Shown in pieces: positions 36,384 to 50,530 of a stretch of DNA of 64,000 nucleotides; the stretch's first letter is position 1; the number at the start of each line of letters is the position of its first letter. Origin of the DNA: Atopobium sp. oral taxon 810 str. F0209 (GTDB lineage: Bacteria > Actinomycetota > Coriobacteriia > Coriobacteriales > Atopobiaceae); the NCBI RefSeq assembly GCF_000466405.1, contig NZ_KE952944.1, positions 1-64,000 on the forward strand, written 5' to 3'. The translations under genes were made by a program, and so were the position numbers. The notes beneath the pieces are model-generated. The model did no database searches and had not been told where the DNA came from. It saw only the letters and a program-made list of their open reading frames with translations.

Positions 36384-37031
36384 CTAGACATGTATATCAA
36401 CAACCATGCGTTGGGGTTTTGTTGCCAAAAGATAGTAAAATTCCTTTTCCTTAACCGTTGCAAATTCGGAGTCCATTTTTTCAGCTGGACCAAAAAACTC
36501 TTGCCCCTCATCACGAATTAAATAAAAAGGTAAATACGTGATATAAGAAGTGCCCGTTCTTACACCAATTCCCGTATAATTCTTACCTGCCATTTTGGTC
36601 TCACGATGTTCCCAAAGCTCGCTGTCTGTGCGATAGAATGTATTTTTGTCGGGCTTCCCTACTACCCATGAAGAAATATAGTTGAAGTTACCACCGTCTT
36701 TTTTGCCAGAATTCTTAAACTCCACCTCAAGTACAACTCTTGTATTGGGTACGTCTCCACCTTCAACACTTGTCACACCATCGCGAGAATAACGCTGCAG
36801 ATATTCGTTAGCAGACATAATTTGTGCCTTTTTGACTGTAAGAGAATAGCCGTTGGTATCCTCACTAATATCATCAATAAAGGCTCCGTTTAGTTTTACT
36901 TCTTCATTCATCGAAAACGTTTGCTCTGGAGTCTCAATACGTGTGGCATTAACCCACCAGATACGTATGCCTATAAGAGTAGTCACCACAATTAAGGCAG
37001 CTAGTACAAAAGGAGTTCTTTTTTTGCTCAT
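36384..37031 (-). CDS. Module 1 bitopic extracytoplasmic protein B
   Basis: A 215-residue protein with a short basic N-terminus and one membrane segment (about residues 7-28). The remainder is an extracytoplasmic domain of about 185 residues, mostly beta-like. It resembles small coriobacterial proteins of unknown function (DUF5028-like, low certainty). Its paralogue is at 43826; the segment SANEYLQRYSRD and the ending KEKEFYYLLATKPQRM are strongly shared. GAGGAG lies 9 nt before the ATG at 37031, 5 bp after the ATPase stop. It is the last gene of module 1 and may act as an anchor or sensor domain for the transporter. Confidence 0.7.
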   Translation of the reverse strand: MSKKRTPFVLAALIVVTTLIGIRIWWVNATRIETPEQTFSMNEEVKLNGAFIDDISEDTNGYSLTVKKAQIMSANEYLQRYSRDGVTSVEGGDVPNTRVVLEVEFKNSGKKDGGNFNYISSWVVGKPDKNTFYRTDSELWEHRETKMAGKNYTGIGVRTGTSYITYLPFYLIRDEGQEFFGPAEKMDSEFATVKEKEFYYLLATKPQRMVVDIHV

Positions 37032-37036
37032 AGTGT

Positions 37037-37705
37037 TTAGCTCCTCGCAAGGTGGGTGGCAGGCTCAAGCTTTTCATAACCATCAATATGGCCTTCTGCA
37101 AGGTAGTAGATTTGATCGGAGAGCTCACGCAGTATTGATGCGTCGTGACAAGAGATGACACAGGTTGCACCACGCTCACGTTCACGGGCAATTATGCGTT
37201 TGAACATAGCCACACCATCAGAATCTAGCGCATTGGTAGGCTCATCTAACAAGAGTAGGTCTGGACGCTCCATTATTGCAGCAGCAATACCTAGGCGCTG
37301 TTTCATACCCAAGGAATATTTGCGAAACTTACGCTTATCATCTGGGTCAAGGCCCACCTCTTTAATGACTTGTCGCAGATCGTCTTCTTGTAGCAAGTCC
37401 TTAATGGAAGCCAAGATACGTAGGTTTTCTAGACCTGTGCGGTCATTAAGAAATGCTGGGTTTTCAATAAGTACACCCACGCTTGGAGGAAAGGATATAT
37501 CACGCCAGAGGCGTTTTCCATCAATATCTATCGTTCCTGAGTTTAGGCGTATAAGTCCTGCCACTGCTCTCATAAGCATTGTTTTACCTGATCCGTTAAC
37601 TCCAGCCAAACCAGTCACACATCCAGAAGGCATGCTCATTGAGATATTGCTAAGGATAGTCACACCATGGATTGTTTTATTCAAATTATTAATTTCTACT
37701 GACAT
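37037..37705 (-). CDS. Module 1 ABC transporter ATPase
   Basis: A 222-residue ABC ATPase of the short type that pairs with ABC-2-like permeases of antibiotic or peptide exporters and LanFEG-type immunity transporters. Walker A GVNGSGKT, signature YSLGMKQRLGIAAA and Walker B LLLLDEPTNALD are intact, and the switch region reads VISCHDAS. Starts at ATG 37705, which lies 2 bp past the permease stop, so it is coupled. Its N-terminal 45 codons are identical in sequence to the paralogue at 44464 because of a shared 182-bp tract. It should power the two permeases upstream. Confidence 0.88.
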   Translation of the reverse strand: MSVEINNLNKTIHGVTILSNISMSMPSGCVTGLAGVNGSGKTMLMRAVAGLIRLNSGTIDIDGKRLWRDISFPPSVGVLIENPAFLNDRTGLENLRILASIKDLLQEDDLRQVIKEVGLDPDDKRKFRKYSLGMKQRLGIAAAIMERPDLLLLDEPTNALDSDGVAMFKRIIARERERGATCVISCHDASILRELSDQIYYLAEGHIDGYEKLEPATHLARS

Positions 37706-37706
37706 A

Positions 37707-38552
37707 TCAAGCTTCTTTCTCGAGGATGTCTGTCTTTGTAAGGAAATAGCCCCCAATAACCACAGAGGCCACTATCGCTATCAATCCAAGGCAGGTGCTC
37801 CATAGGGGTGATACGCCATCCGCAACATACACAGTGCTCCGAATTGCCATCAAAGAATTGCCCAATAAAAAATGATTTCCCGAAAAGGCTGACACAAAAA
37901 GAATGCTAATCGTTACTACATAGCCCCACAGCGGACGAAAAAGCAGTGATATCGCAAGCTGCAGCATGCAGAGTGCACAGAGCACCACGGGCACCACATA
38001 AAGAAATGACATGATATCGTAACTGGTAACATCGAAGTTTATTACGCTATCAAATCTAAGTAATAAAGCTGATGTATCTGTTGCAATAAAAGAATGATCA
38101 CATCCAATAATCAGCGCAAAAAATGTTGTCAATACAAATCCAATAAGGCAATAAATGCAAACATAAACAATTATCCAGGCACACTTTGCAAGCCACCACG
38201 ACCAGCGTGAGCCGCTTGCAATCATCATGGTTTTGCCCGAACCCATAAGATCATGATAGGGATACCACAGGGTGATATATGCTAACAAAAGAATGGGGGC
38301 AAACCAGCTAATAGGCAGCGTAAATGGTGTTGAGCTTGTCGGATCGTAGGCAAGCCCACCCGCAGTAAGATTAAAATAGTAATCTCCTAAGGTAAATTGA
38401 GCTGCTATGCCTTCTGCTCGTAGATTTAGTGTGCTTAAATAAAATGCAACCGGAAGAATAAGAAAAACCCCTGCTGCAACTAACCACCATGCTAACGAGC
38501 GGCGCCAACCCTCCCTGATATCTAGCATAAAGAATTTAAAAAACCTGCTCAT
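37707..38552 (-). CDS. Module 1 ABC-2-type permease B
   Basis: A 281-residue integral membrane protein with about six helices, typical of permease subunits of ABC-2 exporters. It begins MSRFFKFFMLDIREGWRRSLAWWL. Segments WYPYHDLMGSGKTMMIASGSRWSWWLAKC and LRPLWGYVVTISILFVSAFSGN are near the paralogue's sequence (45134), and both are 281 residues long. The ATG at 38552 overlaps the stop of permease A (ATGA), which decides the start against the longer frame from 38618. With permease A and the ATPase it forms a heterodimeric transporter. Confidence 0.82.
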   Translation of the reverse strand: MSRFFKFFMLDIREGWRRSLAWWLVAAGVFLILPVAFYLSTLNLRAEGIAAQFTLGDYYFNLTAGGLAYDPTSSTPFTLPISWFAPILLLAYITLWYPYHDLMGSGKTMMIASGSRWSWWLAKCAWIIVYVCIYCLIGFVLTTFFALIIGCDHSFIATDTSALLLRFDSVINFDVTSYDIMSFLYVVPVVLCALCMLQLAISLLFRPLWGYVVTISILFVSAFSGNHFLLGNSLMAIRSTVYVADGVSPLWSTCLGLIAIVASVVIGGYFLTKTDILEKEA

Positions 38553-39403
38553 AATACATCTCTCTTTAATTTTAATAGTGAAGGCACCAGCGATAGAATT
38601 AAAAGAAGCAACATCCAAATGCCTACTATGGTGAGACTGTGTGTAGCGTCTCTTTCGAATGCCCGTATGAGCTGCGGCAACCCAAATTCAGGATGAGCCA
38701 CTCCACTAGCAATCAGATATAAGCGATCAGAAATAAAATCGGAAAGAATGGCTGCGAGATATGTGCCTGAAATGAGCGCGACGCGATTGCGAATAAGAAA
38801 AGATAGCCCGAGCACGGCTACTGCCCACAAGCCGCACATACAAAATGCAATAGCCGAATAAAGCACGCAATATAACAGCGGATTTGTATAAAAAATTTCT
38901 GACCAGAGGGCAGAGGTGTAGACACCTGTATAAATAACATTTTCAATCGAAGGAGTATATGTTGGGACAAAGCAGGCAAGTACTATAAGATTGATCGTAG
39001 ACGGAATGAGGGCAACAAGACCGCCTGAGATAAAGGCTGCAATATACTTTGCAACAAAATATTTTACGCGACTTACACGTGAAAACACTTGGTTTGCGTA
39101 TCCAAATTCGAGCTCCTGACGCATCGAGCAGGCATAAGGAATTGCTGCAAGCAGAAGCACCAACTGATAAAACAAACCCTCAAACGGAACCACATTATGC
39201 ACTGACATCCAAAAGGCATAACAGCTATCCCAATTCGTTGGACCCCAGCTCGTTGGAGAAAGCTGCTTTGGAATCATGTCGAAATGGGTTTGAATACCAG
39301 GAATTGCGCTTAACAGAGCCAAGACAATGCCTACAGCAAGAACGGCATAGTATAGTCTATTGCGAAAAGCGCGTGATAACTCCATTTTTAGCAAGCGAAT
39401 CAT
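38549..39403 (-). CDS. Module 1 ABC-2-type permease A
   Basis: A 284-residue polytopic protein with about six helices. It begins MIRLLKMELSRAFRNRLYYAVLAVGIVLAL, and its loop PYACSMRQELEFGYANQVFSRVSRVKYFVAKYIAAF resembles MrsE/LanE-type immunity permeases. It overlaps the preceding gene (TAATG) and the following gene (ATGA). The paralogue at 45976 is the same length and clearly homologous. Which substrate is moved is unknown; peptide or lipid-like molecules are the likeliest. Confidence 0.82.
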   Translation of the reverse strand: MIRLLKMELSRAFRNRLYYAVLAVGIVLALLSAIPGIQTHFDMIPKQLSPTSWGPTNWDSCYAFWMSVHNVVPFEGLFYQLVLLLAAIPYACSMRQELEFGYANQVFSRVSRVKYFVAKYIAAFISGGLVALIPSTINLIVLACFVPTYTPSIENVIYTGVYTSALWSEIFYTNPLLYCVLYSAIAFCMCGLWAVAVLGLSFLIRNRVALISGTYLAAILSDFISDRLYLIASGVAHPEFGLPQLIRAFERDATHSLTIVGIWMLLLLILSLVPSLLKLKRDVL

Positions 39404-40095
39404 TACTTGTCATCTTTCTCTGTACTCAGGGAGATGTGGTGGTACATCTCTGACCCAGCAACACCAATAGTGAGCTCGGCTGGCTGGTCTGAAGGATCGG
39501 TGTCCAGATAAAACCCTAAAACCATTGTCTTTTCTTCACCTGGATCTAATCTGAAGTGAAGGTATTCTGGCTGTCCAAGTGTATAAGCTGAGTTATTAAA
39601 GTAGGAAACATCCGATCCCAAATTGTATTTAAAGACACTGCTATGAAATGTATCATCGTCGCTATGAAAAGGCTTCGCATCGATATTTTTTAGTCTAAAG
39701 GTAATAAGTGCAAATCCATATGTCTTAAACTCAGCCGATAACTCATGGTACTCTCCAACGGCAAGACCCGCATCTTTTGGAGAATCAAACAATTCGTACT
39801 TATCAACCGTAACTTGCATCGTTCCAGACCATGGATAAAACACGCCATATGAATCGCCTGATGATGTCTTTTTTAGATCTTTTTTGGAGTCAAGGGTAAT
39901 TGTTGTGTGCATTGCTCCATGCATACGCTTATTTTCACTCTGTTCAAATTCCTTGGCCTCTTGGTGAGCTTGTCTTAAAAGTGCATACTGATAGGTAAGC
40001 CAAGCTCCATATATCAACACGGATCCTATGGTAAAAGCTACAAGCAACTTTAAGGCACGTTTCTCACTTTTTGTGATTTGAGCTATCCTTGCCAC
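39403..40095 (-). CDS. Module 1 bitopic extracytoplasmic protein A
   Basis: A 230-residue protein with one membrane helix (residues about 15-35, LKLLVAFTIGSVLIYGAWLTYQY) and an extracytoplasmic domain of about 190 residues rich in beta-like segments (YPWSGTMQVTVDKYELFDSPKDAGL). The paralogue at 46827 shares GVYYDWSGVMQATVDSYKVFDSPKEAGL, the membrane anchor and the ending GEEKxxxLGFYLD. The start is GTG at 40095, with GGGAG 7 nt upstream. It resembles protein B in layout but not clearly in sequence, so each module has two anchored proteins. Function unknown. Confidence 0.7.
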   Translation of the reverse strand: MARIAQITKSEKRALKLLVAFTIGSVLIYGAWLTYQYALLRQAHQEAKEFEQSENKRMHGAMHTTITLDSKKDLKKTSSGDSYGVFYPWSGTMQVTVDKYELFDSPKDAGLAVGEYHELSAEFKTYGFALITFRLKNIDAKPFHSDDDTFHSSVFKYNLGSDVSYFNNSAYTLGQPEYLHFRLDPGEEKTMVLGFYLDTDPSDQPAELTIGVAGSEMYHHISLSTEKDDK

Positions 40096-40201
40096 AATAA
40101 CTCTCCCTCAAACAACTCTTTCAAAGTCGATAAAGACACCCGGAAACGTAATGCATAACCTCAGTGATTCATAATTTTATTCCTAGTTTTTTAACAAGAA
40201 G

Positions 40202-40729
40202 CTAGTTCATCGATGGATATGAATACATGCTGTCAGGACTCCAAACACCCGATACGGTTACCTTAGATCCCCTAACAAACCAACCTCTCAGACGTGCGTA
40301 GTCATATCCACTTTCTTTCACGTTGTTGTGTATGCACCACTGCCCTTTCTTCAGTATGGGCGCATAGCCGCCAACAGTCATGTTTTTCCATGAGCCTGTT
40401 TTGCTTTTGGCTCCGTCTACATACATCCTTGCCGTGCCGTTGTAATTTGAGTTATTTAAATATGCGATGTTTACATACGTGGGACTTGTGTCGTCTTTTT
40501 TCCGCCCCGGCGTGCTTTGCCCACGATTAAATGCCGATAACTCGAATGCATAGTATTCGTCGTCTGTTATACGCCTCAATAAGATTTTTGTCTCGGGGGG
40601 CGTTGTAAGAGGATTAACATCATCTTCATTGATTGGATGTGCGAACGCGGGACTAACTGGAACGCACATGAGTAATACCGCTACCGCCACAGCCCATTTC
40701 CAACAACAGCGCTTTCTACCTTGTTGCAT
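40202..40729 (-). CDS. Module 1 secreted protein, putative bacteriocin-like or signal
   Basis: A 175-residue protein with a clear Sec signal peptide: basic start, hydrophobic core, and a likely cleavage after AFA at about residue 30. The mature region of about 145 residues is rich in Tyr, Asn, Ser and Gly, with a likely structured stretch (GGYAPILKKGQWCIHNNVKESGYDYARLRG) and an ending WSPDSMYSYPSMN. It loosely resembles secreted DUF2712-type or lactococcin-972-like proteins found beside ABC transporters, but I cannot confirm either. ATG at 40729 has GAGGAAGAGG upstream and is preferred over TTG 40747. It has no counterpart in module 2 beyond the 27-residue peptide at 47526. Confidence 0.65.
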   Translation of the reverse strand: MQQGRKRCCWKWAVAVAVLLMCVPVSPAFAHPINEDDVNPLTTPPETKILLRRITDDEYYAFELSAFNRGQSTPGRKKDDTSPTYVNIAYLNNSNYNGTARMYVDGAKSKTGSWKNMTVGGYAPILKKGQWCIHNNVKESGYDYARLRGWFVRGSKVTVSGVWSPDSMYSYPSMN

Positions 40730-40800
40730 GCCTCTTCCTCTCTTCAAAGTCTCCGGGTGCCTGTACTAAGGCAGATTGTTGTGCGATAGCACGTGTAGCG

Positions 40801-40824
40801 CTAGTCAACAGGGGTACCAGAGTT
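40801..40824 (-). promoter_or_regulatory. Conserved element downstream of the module 1 regulator
   Basis: The minus strand reads AACTCTGGTACCC then CTGTTGACTAG. Nearly the same sequence (AACTCTAGTGCCC then TGATGACTAG) lies at the same place in module 2 (47684-47706). Both are 16 bp past the regulator stop and 72-75 bp before the next start. It is a candidate operator or promoter of the structural genes. Confidence 0.5.
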
Positions 40825-40839
40825 GGAAGAACGGGCTGT

Positions 40840-43605
40840 TTACATGCCTAAACCATGTGAAACAAAGTCAACAAGCTTATCTCTACTTGAGATGCCAAGA
40901 ATTTTGTAGCCACTTGAACGCGCCGCGCTAATACTAGAAGAGGAATATCCCAGGTGAGAAGCGATTTCTCTTGTTGTACGTCCGCGAATTACGCCAAGTA
41001 ACGACTGGGCTTGAATTTCGCTGAGTCCTCGGGATGCAAAAAGATAAAGAATACGCTCGTCCAGTGACTGAGGCAGTTTATCGGTCAGCTCATAGCTAGA
41101 AATCCTGCCAGATATCTGTACGTAGCAGAAGATGGCTGCGGCACACGCCAACACCGATCCCATGCCCGAGCAAAACAAAAAAATCTGCCTTAGGATGGTG
41201 GGGCCACCCAACCATTCAAAGTAGTATGAATTTGCTATCAGCAAGGTTGCATACTTATCAACTGCAATTGAGCCAAAAACTGCTCCAACGCCAAAACAAA
41301 TAAGACAAACCGACGCGATATGCCGCACAGACGATAATCCATTTACTGGAGATAGCTCTTCTAAAATGGAGGACAGCCACGGATAGTGCACGAATACGGC
41401 CGCAACCACCATGGGACACCAAGCAAAAATGATATAGGGGCATATATTCCAAATGCCTTGCTGCGCTATCAGTAGCATCCCGCTCACACAGACGATACTT
41501 ACAGGAATCAGAAGGCGTGCTATACGGTGTTTTATCAGTATAAATCCCGACAGGAATACCAACGTTGCTATAAATGGAACAAACGCAGGGAGCGCGCACA
41601 GCAGCGTGTGAATTCTCCACGACTCCTCAAAAACGAAACCAAGTGCACAGGCGAGTAGGCAGAGCGATATTCGCTCGGCAGCACCTATAGTAGCCACGTG
41701 CATCGCACCAGTTTGTAGCTGAGACATCCGTTGGGAGCACTCCCCTTTTAGCTCATATGTATTTCCATCACTCACTATCCACGTAGTATCGACTACAAAT
41801 AAAGCCGTAAAAGCCGCTGACACAGCAATCGCAATAAGCCAAGTAATGTCTCCAAATAACGAAAAGGCCATCATCCCCGCTGCAACAGCAATAGCCTGTA
41901 TAAATTCACATGCACGACTTGTGTGAATTGCTGCTCTGATACATAAAAAAATACATGAAGTGAGACTGAAATACGCGAGTAGATACCCTAGGGCAGCAAA
42001 GTCCAACAACCCGTCATCCTTTACGCGTATATAAGTTTGGGTGTACTTTACACATATGCCAACCATAAAAACGATGCCTACAACCAATAAAAATTTTTCT
42101 ATACCACTAAAGGCTACAGCGTCCTCTTCATCTTTTTCTTCTGTCTGATGAAACTCTGCATACAAACGCAGAGCGCCGCATACAACAAAGGCAAGAGCAA
42201 CGCCAAGTACGATATGGCGACCTGAGCCCCAGAGCTGATTGGTGGCGCCTATGGGTAATAAGAGTAAATAAATAAGTGAAATAGGTCCACAAAGCTCAAG
42301 GCATCTCGGGAGATGTAGCCAACTTGGCAAACTTAGCCGCTGCATCCATTCCAGTTGCCCAGACAGCCCCCACTCACCTTGAGAAACATCTGCCAAAGAA
42401 TCGATGTTTTGAAAACTGTGGTTCTCATTAGCCTGAGGCTCTTCCTCACTACGAGCGCTTGTACTATCATCTGCCCAATTAAGTTGCGACATGAGTTCCT
42501 GACCATCAACAACGCCAAGTTTTTTGTAGGAACGTCGGAGATAGGTACGGACTGTTGACGCACTGATGCCTAGTTCTTCGGCAGAGTCTGCAGATGTCTT
42601 TCCTTTAAGCATCAACTCAACTGCCGCCGTTTCGCGGTCACTGAGATCTGCTTCAACACACAACGTTCTCAGCTCAGCAAGCTTTTTCTTCAGCTGGTTA
42701 TCTTCAGTGGGGGCTATGGAATCTTTTTTCATACCCCAAAGCGATAAGGCAAGCAGTATCAAAAGGAGAGCAAGGAGCATACAAGCGATAACGCCCACCG
42801 CAAACATACTTACAACTCGTGTCACGACATTCCATATAAAGAGTCCGCAGGCAAAAAGTCCCATATAGACAGCGCGTTGTGTTGCCAGCTTGTCTGCCTG
42901 TAAAAAACCTTCTTCCAGAGCATGTGCCTTTGCAATCATTTCTTCTTTTGTAGGTATCCGCTCTGCAGCAGTTGTTTGTATTTTCGCGGACTCGCCATCA
43001 GTTCCGGAGTCTTCTTCACAAGCTATATCGTCAATCTGTGGGGTACCACAATAAAGCAGCACAAGCGTTGCAACAAGCACGATACCTGTGGAAATAAGGT
43101 TATACCCAAGTGATAGATGTTCTGGAAAAATTTGCGAGACTGATTGACAAAATCCTGCAAGCAGAAGTAAAGAAAACCCATAGCGGACTGTCAAATCTTC
43201 TTCTTGAATTGCCTTATCAGCATAAGTTTGGGCACGTGCAGCAAAGCTCATGGTGCAAAGGGCACCAGAAATTATGATGAGTGTCTGGGGCAGGAGTTCC
43301 CATACCCAATACAGCTCACCCATAAACGGAAGCTCTATAAATCCTGTAGAATATATCGCAAAAAACAGTGCGGTATATGTCGTTACGACATATCCAGAGA
43401 CAAGTAAAACTACATCTCCATGAGCCACTGTAAAAAAGTCTGTTTGTGCGATTTTGTTATAGAACACTGCGCCTGCAATGATGCCCATTGCAAGGTAGGC
43501 AAATATGCCAGGATATCCCAGTCCATCTCCCTGCCAAAGCCGTGTAGTAAGCAGAGTTTCAGCCATGAGGGCTCCCCATGCGATATCGGGTTGCCGCCTT
43601 CTCAT
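40840..43605 (-). CDS. Module 1 membrane-bound double-HTH LuxR-type regulator
   Basis: A 921-residue protein with an unusual order: about eight membrane helices (residues 20-295), a LuxR-type HTH (LSDRETAAVELMLKGKTS... TVRTYLRRSYKKLG, about 323-368), then about twelve helices, and a second C-terminal LuxR-type HTH (GRTTREIASHLGYSSSSISAARSSGYKILG, near 857-905). Coriobacterial regulators usually have one membrane part plus one HTH, so this one looks like two units joined. ATG 43605 has GGAAGG 6 nt upstream; ATG 43611 is possible. It is first in module 1 and probably controls the genes after it, perhaps by sensing an envelope or peptide signal. Confidence 0.85.
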   Translation of the reverse strand: MRRRQPDIAWGALMAETLLTTRLWQGDGLGYPGIFAYLAMGIIAGAVFYNKIAQTDFFTVAHGDVVLLVSGYVVTTYTALFFAIYSTGFIELPFMGELYWVWELLPQTLIIISGALCTMSFAARAQTYADKAIQEEDLTVRYGFSLLLLAGFCQSVSQIFPEHLSLGYNLISTGIVLVATLVLLYCGTPQIDDIACEEDSGTDGESAKIQTTAAERIPTKEEMIAKAHALEEGFLQADKLATQRAVYMGLFACGLFIWNVVTRVVSMFAVGVIACMLLALLLILLALSLWGMKKDSIAPTEDNQLKKKLAELRTLCVEADLSDRETAAVELMLKGKTSADSAEELGISASTVRTYLRRSYKKLGVVDGQELMSQLNWADDSTSARSEEEPQANENHSFQNIDSLADVSQGEWGLSGQLEWMQRLSLPSWLHLPRCLELCGPISLIYLLLLPIGATNQLWGSGRHIVLGVALAFVVCGALRLYAEFHQTEEKDEEDAVAFSGIEKFLLVVGIVFMVGICVKYTQTYIRVKDDGLLDFAALGYLLAYFSLTSCIFLCIRAAIHTSRACEFIQAIAVAAGMMAFSLFGDITWLIAIAVSAAFTALFVVDTTWIVSDGNTYELKGECSQRMSQLQTGAMHVATIGAAERISLCLLACALGFVFEESWRIHTLLCALPAFVPFIATLVFLSGFILIKHRIARLLIPVSIVCVSGMLLIAQQGIWNICPYIIFAWCPMVVAAVFVHYPWLSSILEELSPVNGLSSVRHIASVCLICFGVGAVFGSIAVDKYATLLIANSYYFEWLGGPTILRQIFLFCSGMGSVLACAAAIFCYVQISGRISSYELTDKLPQSLDERILYLFASRGLSEIQAQSLLGVIRGRTTREIASHLGYSSSSISAARSSGYKILGISSRDKLVDFVSHGLGM

Positions 43606-43692
43606 GTGCATCCTTCCGCCTTCTCACGACTATCCGCGTATAACCTTACACCAAAGAACTGGAGACAACTGCACAGTAGACGTTGCGGGCAT

Positions 43693-43726
43693 AATGGACG
43701 GCGCAACAATATATGCGTCGTCCATT
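43693..43726. promoter_or_regulatory. Inverted repeat upstream of the module 1 regulator
   Basis: AATGGACGGCGCA and TGCGTCGTCCATT are 13-bp arms with one G-T pair and an 8-nt loop, about 90 bp upstream of the regulator start at 43605. No T run follows on either side, so an operator for the regulator or for a dimeric repressor is more likely than a terminator. Confidence 0.55.
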
Positions 43727-43825
43727 GTGCTGGCCTTCAATTAATAGGATGTTGGCATAAAGATCAGAGCGATCTAATCGCTTGCACGTCAGAGTTCACC
43801 CTCTCTTTATAAAAAAGAAGTATCC

Positions 43826-44458
43826 TTAAACATGCACATTAACCCTCATCTGCTGAGGTTTTGTCGCAATCAGGTAGTCGAATTCCTTTTCATTAATGGT
43901 TGCATAGGTAGAAGCCTTCTCCTTATAAGGGGAAAGAAAAGGAGGGTTAGTCAGCATATAGAACGGTATGAAAGTGGTATATGTAGTGCCATCCTTTATC
44001 GATACTGCCGCGTAGTTCCCGCCAATTTTGGTTTCACGATGCTCCCAAAGCTCCGTATCCGTACGATAGTAGGTATTACGACTAGGCTTACCTGTTACCC
44101 AGGAACTGATGATATTAAATGCTCCCGTGCTTCCCGAATTGCGGAACTCAACTTCAAGAACAACTCGCGTATTCGGTGTATCCCCACCCTCGACACTCTT
44201 CACATCATCGCGAGAATAACGCTGCAGATATTCGTTAGCAGACATAATTTGTGCCTTTTTGACAACGAGCGAATACCCATTTGTGTCCTCACTGATATCA
44301 TCAAGAAATGCACCGTCTAGTTTTATCTCTTGGTTCATGGGAAAAGATTGCACAGGAGTCTCGATGCGATGCGCGTTTATCCACCAAATGCGCACTCCTA
44401 TCAGCGCAGTTACCACAATTAAGCTAGCCACAAATAGCGGGATTCTTTTCTTACTCAT
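43826..44458 (-). CDS. Module 2 bitopic extracytoplasmic protein B
   Basis: A 210-residue paralogue of the protein at 36384: a basic N-terminus, one membrane helix (residues 7-28) and a beta-like extracytoplasmic domain. The shared segments ISEDTNGYSL, SANEYLQRYSRDDVKSVEGGD and WEHRETK make the homology clear. A 5-residue gap and the ending KEFDYLIATKPQQM distinguish it. GAGGAG lies ahead of ATG 44458. It is the last gene of module 2. The domain is unnamed to my knowledge. Confidence 0.7.
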   Translation of the reverse strand: MSKKRIPLFVASLIVVTALIGVRIWWINAHRIETPVQSFPMNQEIKLDGAFLDDISEDTNGYSLVVKKAQIMSANEYLQRYSRDDVKSVEGGDTPNTRVVLEVEFRNSGSTGAFNIISSWVTGKPSRNTYYRTDTELWEHRETKIGGNYAAVSIKDGTTYTTFIPFYMLTNPPFLSPYKEKASTYATINEKEFDYLIATKPQQMRVNVHV

Positions 44459-44463
44459 AGCAG

Positions 44464-45132
44464 TCAGCTCCTCTGTAGATTGTTAACAGAGGTCAATTCT
44501 TCATAGCCATCAATATGACCCTCCGCGAGGTAGTAAATACTGTCTGAAACTTCCCGCAACACAGAAGCATCGTGGCAAGAAACTATGCATGTTGCACCTC
44601 TTGCGCGAGCCTTAGCGAGAATATGTTTGAACAGGACAACACCATCAGAATCAAGGGCATTTGTTGGCTCATCCAAAAGCAGTAGGTTTGGCTGTTCCAT
44701 CGTTGCAGCCGCTATTCCTAAGCGCTGTTTCATCCCGAGAGAATATTTCCGAAACTTGCGTTTATCATCTGGCTCAAGTCCAACCTCCTCGAGAGCTTGG
44801 CGAAGGGCGTTCTCTTGCACAATTCCTTTTATAGACGCCAAGATCTGCAGGTTTTCCAAGCCAGTGCGATCGTCCAAAAAGGCAGGATTCTCAATCAACA
44901 GCCCAACACTTGGCGGGAAGGAAATATCACGCCATAAACGATTCCCATCTATATCTATCGTTCCAGAGTTTGGACGTATAAGCCCAGCTACTGCTCTCAT
45001 GAGCATTGTTTTACCTGATCCGTTAACTCCAGCCAAACCAGTCACACATCCAGAAGGCATGCTCATTGAGATATTGCTAAGGATAGTCACACCATGGATT
45101 GTTTTATTCAAATTATTAATTTCTACTGACAT
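44464..45132 (-). CDS. Module 2 ABC transporter ATPase
   Basis: A 222-residue ABC ATPase, paralogue of 37037, with the same Walker A GVNGSGKT, signature YSLGMKQRLGIAAA and Walker B LLLLDEPTNALD. The first 45 codons are identical in nucleotide sequence to module 1. Past that point the two differ at scattered positions (for example QENALRQALEEVGLEPDD against QEDDLRQVIKEVGLDPDD). The start is ATG 45132, 2 bp after the permease stop. Confidence 0.88.
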   Translation of the reverse strand: MSVEINNLNKTIHGVTILSNISMSMPSGCVTGLAGVNGSGKTMLMRAVAGLIRPNSGTIDIDGNRLWRDISFPPSVGLLIENPAFLDDRTGLENLQILASIKGIVQENALRQALEEVGLEPDDKRKFRKYSLGMKQRLGIAAATMEQPNLLLLDEPTNALDSDGVVLFKHILAKARARGATCIVSCHDASVLREVSDSIYYLAEGHIDGYEELTSVNNLQRS

Positions 45133-45133
45133 A

Positions 45134-45979
45134 TCAAGCTTCTTTCTCGAGGATGTCTGTCTTTGTAAGGAAATAGCCCCCAAGAAAAATTGAAAGCAGC
45201 GTGATTGCTACACCCAAACCAAGGCTCCATTCGGAGGTGATCCCATGCGCAGCAAAGGCTGTACTGCGAATGGCCATCAAATTGCTGCCCAAAAGGAGGG
45301 GGTGCTCTATAAAAGCAGAGATAAACAAAATGCTCACCGTTGTCACGTAACCCCAGAGGGGTCGTGCTACTAAAGAAATCGTAAGCTGTAACAAACATAA
45401 GGCACAAATACCTATGGGTACCGTACGTAAAAATGACACAATATTATAGCTTGCAAGGTCAACGTTAACAGCATCTTGGAAACGCAATAACATCGCAGCT
45501 AAAAATGTTGCGTGTAAAGATTTATCGCATCTTGCAATAAGGGCAAACACAACGGTTACTACCAGCGCAATCAGGCAATAGCTCACAACACAGACAATTA
45601 TCCAAGCACATTTTGCAAGCCACCACGCCCATCTTGACCCGCTCGCGATCATCATTGCTTTACCTGAACCCATTAGGTCACGGTAGGGATACCATAAGGT
45701 GATATAAGCCAACAACAATAAAGGTACAAACCAACTGATAGGAAGCTTAAACGGAGTAGAACTGAGAGAATTAAAGGCATTCCCCCCTGCAACAAGATTA
45801 AAAAAATAGTCCCCCATAGTAAGCTGCGAAGCAAGATTTTCATCACCAGCTGTTGCAGCATTCCAAAAGAAAGAAAATGCCAAAAAGAAAACTGCTATTG
45901 CAGATAGTAGCCACCAGAGCCACGTACGTCGTAGACCTTCCCTGACATCAAGCAAGAAAAATTTTGCAAACCTGCTCAC
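45134..45979 (-). CDS. Module 2 ABC-2-type permease B
   Basis: A 281-residue membrane protein with about six helices, paralogue of 37707 and of the same length. It begins MSRFAKFFLLDVREGLRRT. Shared segments are WYPYRDLMGSGKAMMIASGSRWAWWLAKC and ARPLWGYVTTVSILFISAF. It starts at GTG 45979, inside the 4-bp overlap with the upstream permease. The last 17 codons and the next gene's start fall in the 182-bp identical tract. Confidence 0.82.
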   Translation of the reverse strand: MSRFAKFFLLDVREGLRRTWLWWLLSAIAVFFLAFSFFWNAATAGDENLASQLTMGDYFFNLVAGGNAFNSLSSTPFKLPISWFVPLLLLAYITLWYPYRDLMGSGKAMMIASGSRWAWWLAKCAWIIVCVVSYCLIALVVTVVFALIARCDKSLHATFLAAMLLRFQDAVNVDLASYNIVSFLRTVPIGICALCLLQLTISLVARPLWGYVTTVSILFISAFIEHPLLLGSNLMAIRSTAFAAHGITSEWSLGLGVAITLLSIFLGGYFLTKTDILEKEA

Positions 45980-46830
45980 AATACATCATCCCCAAGTCTG
46001 AACATGGGGAGGGCAAGAGATACTACAAGCAAAGTAAATGCCCAAACGCCCATAACAAAGAACGTGTGAGAGAGGTTTACCTCGCATGCCCTCATCAGTT
46101 CTATTAAGCTAAATTCTGGAAATACAACATAGCCCAGCATTACATATATACGCGTGGATACAAAGCCCGATAAAAGCGCAACAAGATAGGAACCAGAAAC
46201 TAGCGCGACACGATTATGTACAACAAAAGACAACCCAAGTACTGCCACAGCCCATAGCCCACAAAGGCAAAAAGCCACAAGCGAATATAGAACAACATAG
46301 AGCAATGGATTGGTATAAAAAAGATGTGACCAAGGCATTTCAGGATAGACGCCAGTATACAAAAGCTGCTCAACCGAGGGTACATATGCGGGAACAAAGC
46401 ACGCAAGCGTTACAAAATTCACTGTAGAGGGAATAAGGGTGACACATCCCCCCGAAACAAAAGTTGCAAGATATTTTGCTATGAAATACTTGCTGCGTGG
46501 AGTACGGGAAAATATGTGGTTTGCATAGCCAAAGTCAAGCTCTTGGCGCATGGAGCATGCATAAGGAATAGTAGCGAGCAGTGGAGCAAGCTGATAGAGC
46601 AGCCCCTCAAAGGGCACCACATCATCAAGAGACATCCAATAAACGTAGCAGCCATCCATGGATGTTGCTCCCCACTCCGTAGGGGAAGCCTCTTTCATAA
46701 GTAACATTTCGTGACGCTGAATTCCATACAGGGCACTTATTAATGCCAGAGCAACAACGATAAAGAGAGCTACGTAATACTTTCTATTGCAAAATGCACG
46801 GGAGAACTCAATCTTGAGAAGCTGACTCAT
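45976..46830 (-). CDS. Module 2 ABC-2-type permease A
   Basis: A 284-residue polytopic protein with about six helices, equal in length to its paralogue at 38549. It begins MSQLLKIEFSRAFCNRKYYVALFIVVALAL and shares YACSMRQELDFGYANHIFSRTPRSKYFIAKYLATF. It overlaps both its neighbours by 4 bp, so the whole transporter is translationally coupled. It would form the membrane channel with permease B. The substrate is unknown. Confidence 0.82.
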   Translation of the reverse strand: MSQLLKIEFSRAFCNRKYYVALFIVVALALISALYGIQRHEMLLMKEASPTEWGATSMDGCYVYWMSLDDVVPFEGLLYQLAPLLATIPYACSMRQELDFGYANHIFSRTPRSKYFIAKYLATFVSGGCVTLIPSTVNFVTLACFVPAYVPSVEQLLYTGVYPEMPWSHLFYTNPLLYVVLYSLVAFCLCGLWAVAVLGLSFVVHNRVALVSGSYLVALLSGFVSTRIYVMLGYVVFPEFSLIELMRACEVNLSHTFFVMGVWAFTLLVVSLALPMFRLGDDVL

Positions 46831-47513
46831 TTCTTATCACCTTCCGCCTCTTCAACAAGCGGAATGTGATACTGCACTGCAGAGCCATCAATACCAATCA
46901 CAAACTCTGAAGAATTCTCATCAGAGTCTGGATCAAGATAAAATCCCAACTCTATCTGTTTTTCTTCACCAATTCCCAGCTCATAATTTAAATATTCATG
47001 CTCAGAATGTGCGTGTGTCGCAAGGTTAAAGTAATCTATTTCACTAGTCGCGTTATGGTGAAATACAGATACACTATACCCATCGTGATTGCCCAAGATT
47101 CCACTAGGAGTAGCGCTCACGTTCTTGAGGGTAAACGTTACAAGTGCAAATTTACTTTTTTTGTCATTTGTTGGTGTAACCCCATATTCACCAACCTTGA
47201 GTCCAGCCTCTTTAGGACTATCAAATACCTTGTATGAATCTACAGTCGCCTGCATTACGCCAGACCAGTCGTAATACACACCCATTGGATCTCCGTCTGG
47301 GATATCCACCACGTCTTTTTTAGAATCTAAAGTCAGAGTCTGATGCATGGACCCCTTAAATCTTTTATCCCTCTTAAATTCTTTTACTATCTGATCAGAC
47401 TGCCTGGCTAGAACATATTGGTAGGAAAGCCACCCACCATAAGCTATGGCAGCTATGCCAATAAGTACCGCAAGCAATCTGATGGTTCGCATTTCGCTTT
47501 TTTTAATATTCAC
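46827..47513 (-). CDS. Module 2 bitopic extracytoplasmic protein A
   Basis: A 228-residue paralogue of 39403. One membrane helix (residues about 9-30, RTIRLLAVLIGIAAIAYGGWLSYQY) precedes an extracytoplasmic domain. Shared segments include TLDSKKD, DWSGVMQATVDSYKVFDSPKEAGL and GEEKQIELGFYLDPDSDE. It starts at GTG 47513, with AGGAG upstream, directly after the stop of the 27-residue peptide at 47526. Its stop overlaps permease A by 4 bp. Confidence 0.7.
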   Translation of the reverse strand: MNIKKSEMRTIRLLAVLIGIAAIAYGGWLSYQYVLARQSDQIVKEFKRDKRFKGSMHQTLTLDSKKDVVDIPDGDPMGVYYDWSGVMQATVDSYKVFDSPKEAGLKVGEYGVTPTNDKKSKFALVTFTLKNVSATPSGILGNHDGYSVSVFHHNATSEIDYFNLATHAHSEHEYLNYELGIGEEKQIELGFYLDPDSDENSSEFVIGIDGSAVQYHIPLVEEAEGDKK

Positions 47514-47525
47514 CAGCAGCTCCTT

Positions 47526-47609
47526 CTAACATGAAAAACTAGGCATGCATGAGAGAAGCATTGCCAGCGCTGCAGCAATCGTTAAAGCGAAGGGCTTTTT
47601 GTGCAACAT
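47526..47609 (-). CDS. Module 2 27-residue lipoprotein-like peptide
   Basis: A short frame of 28 codons including TAG. AAGGAAGGATGAG lies 4 nt before the ATG at 47609. The product starts with HKKPF and a hydrophobic core of about 12 residues, and ends LLSCMPSFSC. LLSC fits a lipobox, so cleavage would leave a seven-residue product beginning with Cys. It occupies the place of the secreted protein in module 1. The next gene's ribosome site starts within 2 bp of its stop. It could be a small signal peptide, a remnant of a lost secreted-protein gene, or a leader peptide. Coding is judged by context only. Confidence 0.5.
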   Translation of the reverse strand: MLHKKPFALTIAAALAMLLSCMPSFSC

Positions 47610-47683
47610 AATCTCATCCTTCCTTTTGTAATTTCTCGGGCGCCCTTAGTGAGGTCAATGATTGGTTAGCTGCTCACTCTTTA

Positions 47684-47706
47684 CTAGTCATCAGGGCACT
47701 AGAGTT
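47684..47706 (-). promoter_or_regulatory. Conserved element downstream of the module 2 regulator
   Basis: The minus strand reads AACTCTAGTGCCC then TGATGACTAG, matching the module 1 element at 40801-40824 with four differences and a 1-bp gap, while flanking sequence is not conserved. It sits 16 bp past the regulator stop and 75 bp ahead of the 27-residue peptide. Candidate operator or promoter of the structural genes. Confidence 0.5.
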
Positions 47707-47721
47707 AGGAAGGATGGCTGA

Positions 47722-50283
47722 TTACATGCCTATACCTCGCAATATACAGTTCACTAGACCCTTGCGCTCATGAACATCAAGTACCTTATAGGCACTGGTT
47801 CGAGCGGCACCTATTGCGGAAGGAGAGTAGCCCATACGGGTAGCAATTTCTTTTATACTAAAACCGCGCACGATGCCCAACGATACGCGAGACTGAATCT
47901 CGTCCAAACCGCGGGATTCCAGATAGTGAAGTATGCGCTCGTCAGTAGAAAGAGGCAACTTCTCTAAAAGCTCATTACTCGCAATTCTGTTATAGAGATG
48001 CATGCCGCAAACAGCTGTAGCTGCACTCGAAAACACTGATACCACACCAGCGAAAAACAAAAAAGCCTGTCGTAACACAGTCGGTCCGCCCAGCCAAGAA
48101 AGATAGCTTTGATGCGCTGAGAGTAACTGTGCGTATTTATCAACTGCAACCAAACTTGCGACGATACCCAAACCAAAGCAGATGAAATATCCTGGTAATG
48201 AAGAGGCTCTGGCTACTGAGTGGTCGCCTTCGTTATACGCCACCAAAAACTGCGCAAGCATCAGCGCACACCAGATAAAAACAACAAGTGGACAAATGCT
48301 CCAGATCCCCTGTTGCAACACCAACACCAAACTAGCCATAGAGACAATAATTAGAGGCATAAGTTGCTTATCGCTTTTTTGTTTTACGAACATCATTCCT
48401 GAAAATAAAATTAAAGTCGTAATAAACGGAACAAGCATGGGTAACATACAAAGCCAAGTAGAGATACGCCACGTTTCCTCAAATGTGACGCCAATCCCAA
48501 ACGCAACAACAAACATTGCAAAGTTCGCAGGAGAAGCTTCGCTAAAAAATGATGGCTGGTCACTCGCCGCTTGAAGAGCTCCCACATTTTCTGTCATCTT
48601 CCCAGACAATCGGATAAAGGCTATCGAGAGGACTGAGGCAATACCAACTGCAATTACCCAGCAAATAGTACCAAACGAAGAAAATGCTACGAAACATGAC
48701 GCGCTTGAAATGGCGTATACAAGATCAGAAATACATATCGTTCGAATGGCAATACGTGCACACATCAGTAAGCAAACCATAAGGATTGCAAACGCAAGTA
48801 GATACCATAAGGATGTTATTGAGTCCCTAGGCCAGTCTTCTGTCTGGACATAATTCAGGTGATATACCGCACAGATACCCACTGCCCATAGAAGACACAA
48901 GCTAAAGAGTATCCAATATCGCTTTGTACTCGTCTCGTTAAGAACTTCTGATGCTTCATCAAAACGACGAGTAAAAAGATATCGTTTATAGGCACCAAAT
49001 AAAATACAGGCACAGGCAACGCCCAGCGTTATATGACGCCCTAAACCCCACGGATGCATAGCAGCTCCGATTGGGAAGAGCAGCAAATAAGCTAACGATA
49101 ACGGGCCGCACAACCAAACATAAATCGGCAAACACAATAATTGTTGAATTTTGTTTGCTTGTACACTATCTATAATTTTTTCGCTTTGCTCTATGCAGGT
49201 CTTCGCTATTGTTTCTGATACCGAGTCAAGATTGTTCTCTTTGTTGTCCTGAAAACGTGATTCCAATTCTTGGGCATCGGCAACATGAAGCTTTTTATAG
49301 GATCGTCTGAGATATGTGCGCACCGTAGGTGCACTAATACCAAGCACTTCGGCGGACTCAGAGGAAGTTTTTCCTGCCAGCATCAGTTCAATTGCTGAAA
49401 TTTCACGCTCGCTAAGACCAGCCTCTATACACGCTACGCGTACAATATCAGATTTTTCTTTTGGCATCGATACAACAACGGGGGAGCCCTTTTGCCTCTG
49501 CAACTCATGCATTGATTTCACAAGTAATATGAACGCGAGAATAAGAAGTACGCATGCGCCCATGCCAACAACTGTCATATTAACTACGCGAGTTACCACA
49601 TCCCACATAAGAAGACCGCAGGCAAATAATCTAAACTCCTGAACTGCTTGGCTAAGCGCGTATTCTACTTCAGCATTCTTACCCATCGCTGTGTTTTCAG
49701 GTGATTGCTCAAATGGGGTCAGGCAATGCAACAAAACGCATACTGCAAAAAACGTTGCAATGGCAGATAGCACATAATAACCAACCGACAGTTGTTCGGG
49801 AAAAACCTGCGGGATAGACTGGCAAAATCCTGCAAGCATCAGAAGGGGAAACTCATAAGGAATAACTGCACTATGAGCTTCTTGTTGTCCTTCTTGAGTG
49901 CGTCTCAATGCTCTCGCCATATATGATGCTACGCAAAGAATACCAAGGGCAACGAGACATATCGGAAGCAATACTTCTATAATCCAGACCCTTAAAATGA
50001 GTCCCTGAATATGCATCACATTAAACAAATCATCAATGAAAAGAAATATCGAAACGAAGCAAGTAAGAAATCCAGCAACAAAAATCCAGCGAGCTCTTCT
50101 CGCTGAAATTGAATGATGAGACTGTAAAAACTTGCGACATAAAATAGTTCCAATAATTATTCCGCCCGCAAAATACATAAATATGCCCGGACTTGGCGCA
50201 TCCCCTCTCTGCCAGGGTCGTATAACTATCAAAGCAAGCGCTATGAGAGCTCCCCAAACTATGTCAGCCTGTCGTTTTCGCAT
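47722..50283 (-). CDS. Module 2 membrane-bound double-HTH LuxR-type regulator
   Basis: An 853-residue paralogue of 40840 with the same order: about eight membrane helices, a LuxR-type HTH (LSEREISAIELMLAGKTS, TVRTYLRRSYKKLH), about twelve helices, and a second HTH (GFSIKEIATRMGYSPSAIGAARTSAYKVLD) at the C-terminus. The start is uncertain. ATG 50283 aligns with the module 1 start (MRKRQADIVWGAL against MRRRQPDIAWGAL). Upstream ATG codons near 50304 have a plausible AAAGAG site. It probably controls the module 2 genes. Confidence 0.83.
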   Translation of the reverse strand: MRKRQADIVWGALIALALIVIRPWQRGDAPSPGIFMYFAGGIIIGTILCRKFLQSHHSISARRARWIFVAGFLTCFVSIFLFIDDLFNVMHIQGLILRVWIIEVLLPICLVALGILCVASYMARALRRTQEGQQEAHSAVIPYEFPLLMLAGFCQSIPQVFPEQLSVGYYVLSAIATFFAVCVLLHCLTPFEQSPENTAMGKNAEVEYALSQAVQEFRLFACGLLMWDVVTRVVNMTVVGMGACVLLILAFILLVKSMHELQRQKGSPVVVSMPKEKSDIVRVACIEAGLSEREISAIELMLAGKTSSESAEVLGISAPTVRTYLRRSYKKLHVADAQELESRFQDNKENNLDSVSETIAKTCIEQSEKIIDSVQANKIQQLLCLPIYVWLCGPLSLAYLLLFPIGAAMHPWGLGRHITLGVACACILFGAYKRYLFTRRFDEASEVLNETSTKRYWILFSLCLLWAVGICAVYHLNYVQTEDWPRDSITSLWYLLAFAILMVCLLMCARIAIRTICISDLVYAISSASCFVAFSSFGTICWVIAVGIASVLSIAFIRLSGKMTENVGALQAASDQPSFFSEASPANFAMFVVAFGIGVTFEETWRISTWLCMLPMLVPFITTLILFSGMMFVKQKSDKQLMPLIIVSMASLVLVLQQGIWSICPLVVFIWCALMLAQFLVAYNEGDHSVARASSLPGYFICFGLGIVASLVAVDKYAQLLSAHQSYLSWLGGPTVLRQAFLFFAGVVSVFSSAATAVCGMHLYNRIASNELLEKLPLSTDERILHYLESRGLDEIQSRVSLGIVRGFSIKEIATRMGYSPSAIGAARTSAYKVLDVHERKGLVNCILRGIGM

Positions 50284-50384
50284 GCGGGTACTCTCGCCTC
50301 TCATCATCTCTTTAGAATTACTGCTTGCTATGGACCAAAGTATAGACCCCCTACTCTTACTTGATGGCTCATATATCGATGGGC

Positions 50385-50407
50385 TGACTCTAGAAATTTT
50401 AGAGTCA
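50385..50407. promoter_or_regulatory. Inverted repeat upstream of the module 2 regulator
   Basis: TGACTCTA and TAGAGTCA are exact 8-bp arms around a 7-nt A/T-rich spacer, about 100 bp upstream of the regulator start. It resembles a binding site for a dimeric regulator. A TTGACT on the minus strand overlaps one arm and could be a -35 box, although no well-spaced -10 is seen. Confidence 0.5.
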
Positions 50408-50530
50408 ACCCAAAGCATCCCTCTTATTTTTTTGTATCATCCTCGTTTGCTAGAGAGCACAAGCAGGAAAGACGCTCATGTTGCACAGCATTCTAGATTA
50501 TGTAGAGCCTACTCGTACGCTAACTCCTCA

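Follow-up and report, generated by a model that had tools for sequence, protein, structure and literature searches.

Tandem transporter modules headed by double-HTH membrane regulators in an Olegusella genome as candidate bacteriocin-like loci

The minus strand between positions 36384 and 50418 of the window (the 64,000-nucleotide stretch of DNA analysed here) carries two modules with a shared gene order: regulator (reg), secreted product (sec), bitopic protein A, permease A (pA), permease B (pB), ATPase (ATP) and bitopic protein B (Table 1). The reading that we favour, with a confidence that we place at even and no higher, is that each module forms, or once formed, a bacteriocin-like locus complete in itself, with a secreted protein, a LanFEG-like immunity system and a one-component membrane regulator; antimicrobial activity, immunity, DNA binding and activation are what we infer from the genes and their surroundings. 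The secreted protein would be made with a Sec signal peptide, exported through the general secretory pathway, and would act extracellularly against competing bacteria, with the envelope as the probable site of action. The two permeases and the ATPase would form a LanFEG-type ABC transporter that, together with A (DUF5027) and B (DUF5028), removes or blocks sec at the producer's own surface, providing immunity. The regulator would be a one-component sensor built of two membrane domains with a LuxR-type HTH behind each; on sensing a signal from the envelope or from outside the cell, it would bind two half-sites that lie ~33 bp from each other immediately after its own gene, and turn on the operon. 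Module 2 would be the complete version, and module 1 a version that has lost the secreted protein and retained the regulator and immunity genes.

Table 1. Features of the two modules in the window, listed in the direction of transcription.
Feature	Position	Strand	Description
reg1	47722..50418	-	Membrane regulator, two LuxR-type HTH; 898 aa as ORF; likely start 50283, giving 853 aa
reg1 inverted repeat (candidate operator)	47687..47725	-	GTAATC-N27-GATGAC, imperfect; overlaps reg1 stop codon
reg1-A1 gap	47514..47721	-	27-aa signal-peptide stub; probably decayed secreted-product gene of module 1
A1	46827..47513	-	Bitopic protein; DUF5027, 38.7 bits, above cut-off
pA1	45976..46830	-	ABC-2-like permease A, 284 aa
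pB1	45134..45979	-	Permease B; weak DUF2705 match
ATP1	44464..45183	-	ABC ATPase; lantibiotic-protection type, below cut-off; likely start 45132
B1	43826..44458	-	Bitopic protein; DUF5028, alone below cut-off
reg2	40840..43611	-	Membrane regulator, two LuxR-type HTH, 923 aa
reg2 inverted repeat (candidate operator)	40804..40843	-	GTAAAC-N28-GTTGAC, imperfect; overlaps reg2 stop codon
sec2	40202..40729	-	DUF2712-like secreted protein; signal peptide-like N-terminus, C-terminal GVWSPDS; ATG at 40729
A2	39403..40095	-	Bitopic protein; DUF5027-like, weak
pA2	38549..39403	-	ABC-2-like permease A, 284 aa
pB2	37707..38618	-	Permease B; start probably internal ATG 38552
ATP2	37037..37756	-	ABC ATPase; start probably 37705
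B2	36384..37031	-	Bitopic protein; DUF5028, 32.1 bits, above cut-off

The source genome is that of an Olegusella species (Atopobiaceae), a bacterium of vaginal type, and the closest named genome is that of O. massiliensis KHD7. A sequence-only reading of the window had described two sets of seven genes with the same order and direction, paralogous gene by gene apart from the secreted product. Order and direction stand, and paralogy was confirmed for six homologous pairs at 42-85% identity (reg 42%, A 47%, pA 59%, pB 61%, ATP 85%, B 69%); the secreted product, however, is intact in module 2 only. The gene arrangement, conserved as it is across genera, is far beyond chance. Several gene starts (reg1, both ATPases and sec2) are likely over-extended as ORFs. 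For reg1, ATG 50283 is the more likely start: ATG 50418 adjoins an inverted repeat resembling a terminator, and the downstream position is also the one that alignment with reg2 supports. The repeat at the over-called start lies at ~50385-50420 in the window and, in O. massiliensis, at L005:9821-9960 (GGGCTGACTCC...GGAGTCAGCCC). An RNA-family scan of the window returned one tRNA and an SRP RNA and nothing else. The first ~70 residues of ATP1 and ATP2 (44464-45183 and 37037-37756) are almost identical and the remainder has diverged, a pattern that looks like gene conversion.

Searches of 300 Coriobacteriia genomes with sec, pA and regulator profiles located 36 sec places in 29 genomes. Sec lies within 5 kb of pA in 34 of the 36, and near a regulator in at least 22 when the best three regulator candidates per genome are scored. 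Non-conservation of the gene order anywhere else had been named beforehand as grounds for giving up the initial reading; the order reg-sec-A-pA-pB-ATP-B was instead found in many genera belonging to four GTDB families. Apart from module 2, ten loci have exactly this order; six further loci and module 1 have it minus sec, and three loci of Collinsella type have it minus A. There are also clusters with no regulator and others with reordered transporter genes. A 30 kb plasmid of C. aerofaciens carries reg-sec-pA-pB-ATP-B, mobilizable L. lactis plasmids of 8.5-9 kb carry a shortened set, a plasmid cluster in Vescimonas has an ECF sigma gene just upstream, and on a 627 kb replicon of E. eligens the cluster is surrounded by agr-type quorum-sensing genes. 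Such neighbours, whether ECF sigma or agr-type genes, are as expected of a regulated effector locus. Two annotation details of these replicons may be recorded: in L. lactis plasmid pLlaUC109V (L050:4328-6540) three membrane-protein ORFs between sec and the ATPase are missing from the gene table, and on the E. eligens replicon (L053:5786-6261) a gene annotated as a cyclic lactone autoinducer peptide overlaps a WSPD-motif ORF in a different frame.

The sec ORFs share features at both ends. An N-terminal hydrophobic segment is present in 31 of 35, the other four being fragments or ORFs with uncertain starts, and an AxA-type cleavage site follows the segment in most aligned members. Near the C-terminus, 33 of the 35 carry [WF]SPD, mostly as GxWSPD[SCT], and the mature proteins have a full length of ~110-145 aa. 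Against DUF2712 (PF10916) sec2 scores 19.8-20 bits, below the gathering cut-off of 22; matches to the same family at E <= 0.5 are found in 9 of 19 sec relatives, and four places in other genomes exceed the cut-off. The Pfam family Lactococcin_972 has no match among 19 sec members at E <= 0.5, neither Pfam nor NCBIfam assigns sec to a named bacteriocin family, and profiles of sec, pA and B found nothing among the sequences of solved structures. Viral contigs searched for sec relatives yielded none, and a search of a phage collection gave no match. The structure predicted for mature sec2 from a 2-sequence alignment (pLDDT 38) was unusable. That the family includes no member with known activity and no solved relative counts against the bacteriocin reading. 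The earlier statement that the region contains no known bacteriocin synthesis gene is true for known families; sec itself, however, is the likeliest candidate for one.

The tight linkage of sec to the transporter can also be read in another way, namely that the transporter, with A and B, finishes the release, folding or surface display of sec, which would then be a surface or signalling protein and no toxin. A and B are membrane-anchored relatives of one another, and their predicted outer domains could serve as chaperones. We regard this as unlikely, since sec has its own signal-peptide-like N-terminus and modules persist without sec, which would be unexpected were sec the substrate. It is also conceivable that sec or a fragment of it is a signal for the double-HTH regulator in a peptide-pheromone circuit, with the transporter importing or clearing sec, and the adjacency of sec and regulator in many loci and the agr-type genes of the E. 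eligens cluster would fit such a circuit. This we hold to be improbable: known pheromones do not look like mature proteins of this size whose C-terminal motif hardly varies, and each partner occurs without the other, the regulator without sec at several loci and sec without the regulator in several clusters.

Within the window, it is module 1 that has no intact sec gene. The gap between reg1 and A1 holds a single 27-aa signal-peptide-like ORF ending at a stop, MLHKKPFALTIAAALAMLLSCMPSFSC. The sec profile found no sec match in module 1, scoring the stub at noise level (5.8 bits, E 9.7); the position of the stub is right for sec, and it is probably a decayed secreted-product gene. The transporter is kept and sec lost in module 1 and in loci L034, L040, L066, L067, L069 and L070. 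Comparison of the close relatives L034 and L039 is instructive: the leader that follows the regulator is nearly identical up to the ribosome-binding site, beyond which sec follows in L039 and A comes at once in L034. Sec loss is frequent among modules, and its loss with retention of transporter and regulator supports the bacteriocin/immunity reading, this being the behaviour of immunity genes. Decay of another kind is seen at L065:3001-6463, where a regulator, a fragment of a WSPD gene and A are present and the transporter is absent.

The second Olegusella species offers a view of the history of the pair. A single module occupies the corresponding site in O. massiliensis, and the upstream flank of its regulator matches that of reg1. 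Between an extra A gene and sec (L005:13540-13610) lies a remnant, EWLGGPSILR...ILRG, that is like parts of the regulator C-terminal region. The simplest reading is that both Olegusella species would once have had the tandem pair, which collapsed in O. massiliensis. Three other genomes of Olegusella gave no regulator match. Between the two species sec is 66% identical, as against 83-90% for pA, pB and ATP, a comparison by which sec evolves faster than its transporter.

Retention of the transporter without sec in several loci is also compatible with a role in envelope stress or antibiotic detoxification, in which the transporter would protect against foreign lantibiotic-like peptides, the regulator would sense them, and sec would be a secreted shield or decoy and no weapon. 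The LanFEG-like ATPase, the membrane one-component sensor in front of the module and the ECF sigma neighbour in Vescimonas are all consistent with such a role. Nevertheless, sec almost never occurs without the transporter (34 of 36 places are linked), its faster divergence is as expected for a competition protein, and location on small plasmids fits bacteriocins better, and detoxification seems to us a rather unlikely account.

For the transporter itself, the best NCBIfam match of the ATPase is the lantibiotic-protection family TIGR03740, at 166 bits against a curated cut-off of 309.75 that is not reached; against L_ocin_972_ABC (TIGR03608) it scores 95 bits, again short of the cut-off (255). 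The permeases are of ABC-2-type size (~250-300 aa), with ~5-7 predicted TM segments each in relatives, and a Pfam ABC2 match is found in 1 of 20 pA members only. The likeness to LanFEG or gallidermin-type immunity transporters, with LanFEG suggested from the window alone, lies in the one ATPase closest to TIGR03740 and the two short ABC-2-like permeases; the sub-threshold score is a difference. Unlike LanFEG systems, the modules have an extra DUF5027/DUF5028 bitopic pair, and neither a lantibiotic precursor nor LanBC/LanM modification genes turned up when the module proteins were compared with Pfam and NCBIfam. Between the two functions that had been left open, peptide export or immunity, immunity is favoured by the TIGR03740-closest ATPase and by retention of the transporter where sec is lost, and export of sec by the transporter is disfavoured because sec carries its own signal-peptide-like N-terminus.

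Of the bitopic proteins, A1 exceeds the DUF5027 (PF16430) cut-off of 25 bits and A2 alone falls below it; B2 exceeds that of DUF5028 (PF16431), 29.9 bits, and B1 alone falls below, with 11 of 14 B proteins matching. Profile comparison relates A and B to each other (probability 95.8%), and every module accordingly encodes two related proteins, both anchored in the membrane and predicted to expose their domains outside it. Prediction of the B/A outer domain from 7 sequences was unusable (pLDDT 42), and a fold search with the model gave no significant match. The module proteins match DUF2712, DUF5027, DUF5028 and DUF2705 weakly to clearly, and in Pfam these entries are separate, function-less domain names. 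The literature covered, largely outside subscription journals, mentions none of the four and contains no account of them as one system.

Among the closest known systems are the lactococcin 972 loci (lcn972-orf2-orf3; scbABC). Lactococcin 972 is a Sec-exported, unmodified bacteriocin, and the membrane and ABC genes that follow it are thought to give immunity (PMC4055356, PMC11796350). The lcn972 locus is found on a small plasmid with transporter-type immunity genes (PMC4055356), and pneumococcal strains are known that have no functional scbA yet retain scbBC (PMC11796350). The modules described here share with these loci a gene for an exported protein followed by membrane and ABC genes (sec having an N-terminus that is only signal-peptide-like), a regulator gene just upstream (ScbR in the scb locus), occurrence on small plasmids, and loss of the bacteriocin or its counterpart with transporter genes kept. 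They differ in that sec gives no match to Pfam Lactococcin_972, the ATPase is far below the L_ocin_972_ABC cut-off, and the membrane components comprise a pair of short permeases together with bitopic proteins of DUF5027/DUF5028 type. The modules are loosely analogous to lactococcin 972 loci, and the likeness is one of analogy, not membership.

The regulators at the head of both sets had been described as double-HTH membrane proteins, and PF00196 (GerE) does match two stretches in each. In reg1 these are HTH1 at 332-391 and HTH2 at 829-891, with about 6 + 11 predicted TM segments, and in reg2 HTH1 at 320-377 and HTH2 at 854-916, with about 6 + 12. Of 31 ORFs examined that match the regulator profile, 30 have two HTH domains, among them all that head a module; the sole exception, a 575-aa ORF in L066 with a single HTH, is a separate neighbour. 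The predicted layout, by a simple hydrophobicity count of TM segments, is ~6-8 TM segments, HTH1, 9-12 TM segments and HTH2. HTH1 and HTH2 are homologous to each other by profile comparison. An internal duplication of the whole unit is not supported, as the two membrane halves show no detectable homology by profile comparison outside the HTH region. A defence-system reading was dropped, PHROGs and PADLOC having given HTH matches only. The main exception to the association of regulator and module is L068:6523-9114, a double-HTH membrane regulator with no adjoining module.

Membrane-bound LuxR-type regulators (TM-LuxRs) with one C-terminal HTH and 10-12 TM helices are abundant in the Coriobacteriia and encoded beside the genes under their control, according to the part of the E. 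lenta work drawn on here; DadR, CadR and HcdR of that study each switch on an adjacent catechol dehydroxylase gene when the substrate of that enzyme is present (PMC9734109). As far as that part of the account goes, the module regulators resemble these proteins in having a multi-TM domain followed by a C-terminal LuxR-type HTH and in their placement next to putative target genes, and differ in having an internal as well as a C-terminal HTH, that is, two membrane-plus-HTH units head to tail. They differ further in the putative paired half-sites in the DNA beside the module regulator.

These half-sites form an inverted repeat just past the last codon of the regulator, upstream of sec and overlapping the stop codon, with 6-bp arms, a 27-29 bp spacer and the type GTAAAC-N27-GTTTAC. 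Of 29 regulator loci, 10 have a perfect repeat, where 0.16 would be expected (shuffle maximum 2), and 16 have one when a single mismatch is allowed, where 2.7 would be expected (shuffle maximum 9); the null model, 2000 dinucleotide shuffles of the sequence downstream of the regulator, counts related loci as independent and so overstates the significance. The arms vary among genera with complementarity kept (GTAAAC/GTTTAC, GTAATC/GATTAC, GTAGAC/GTCTAC, CTAAAC/GTTTAG, TAGGCA/TGCCTA), and paired arm changes recur in several genera. The two repeats of the window are imperfect, with 5 of 6 pairs each, and differ from one another by a paired change (GTAAAC/GTTGAC versus GTAATC/GATGAC). At 18 places upstream of sec that have no regulator, no repeat of the GTAAAC-N27-GTTTAC type was found; four of the 18 have unrelated 6-bp pairs at the same spacing, and L036 has a lone TACAGAC-like half. 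The half-site centres are ~33 bp apart, or three helical turns, a spacing that would suit two HTHs on the same face of the DNA. The repeat is, on this pattern of covariation, a candidate operator. We did not adopt a reading of it as an RNA hairpin or terminator, since a terminator is unlikely to have a 6-bp stem and a loop of 27-29 nt. Control by a membrane-bound sensor, as originally proposed, finds support in the gene association and the covarying inverted repeat.

Taken beyond the Coriobacteriia, the modules may belong to a so far unnamed group of "WSPD" bacteriocins, secreted through Sec, each with an ABC immunity module of its own and distributed over Actinomycetota, Bacillota and plasmids; in the Coriobacteriia, control would lie with a one-chain, two-HTH membrane regulator that reads paired half-sites three helical turns apart. 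We advance this tentatively, at somewhat less than even confidence. Few bacteriocins are, to our knowledge, known in the Coriobacteriia. If the proposal is true, several function-less Pfam families would be united in a single system open to testing, one that pairs a secreted antibacterial protein with immunity to it and is common among Coriobacteriia of the gut and vagina. The regulator would then be a membrane transcription factor that has two heads by nature and a DNA site that can be read; two HTHs on one chain would be an architecture new among one-component membrane transcription factors, and TM-LuxR signalling from membrane to DNA would become directly testable.
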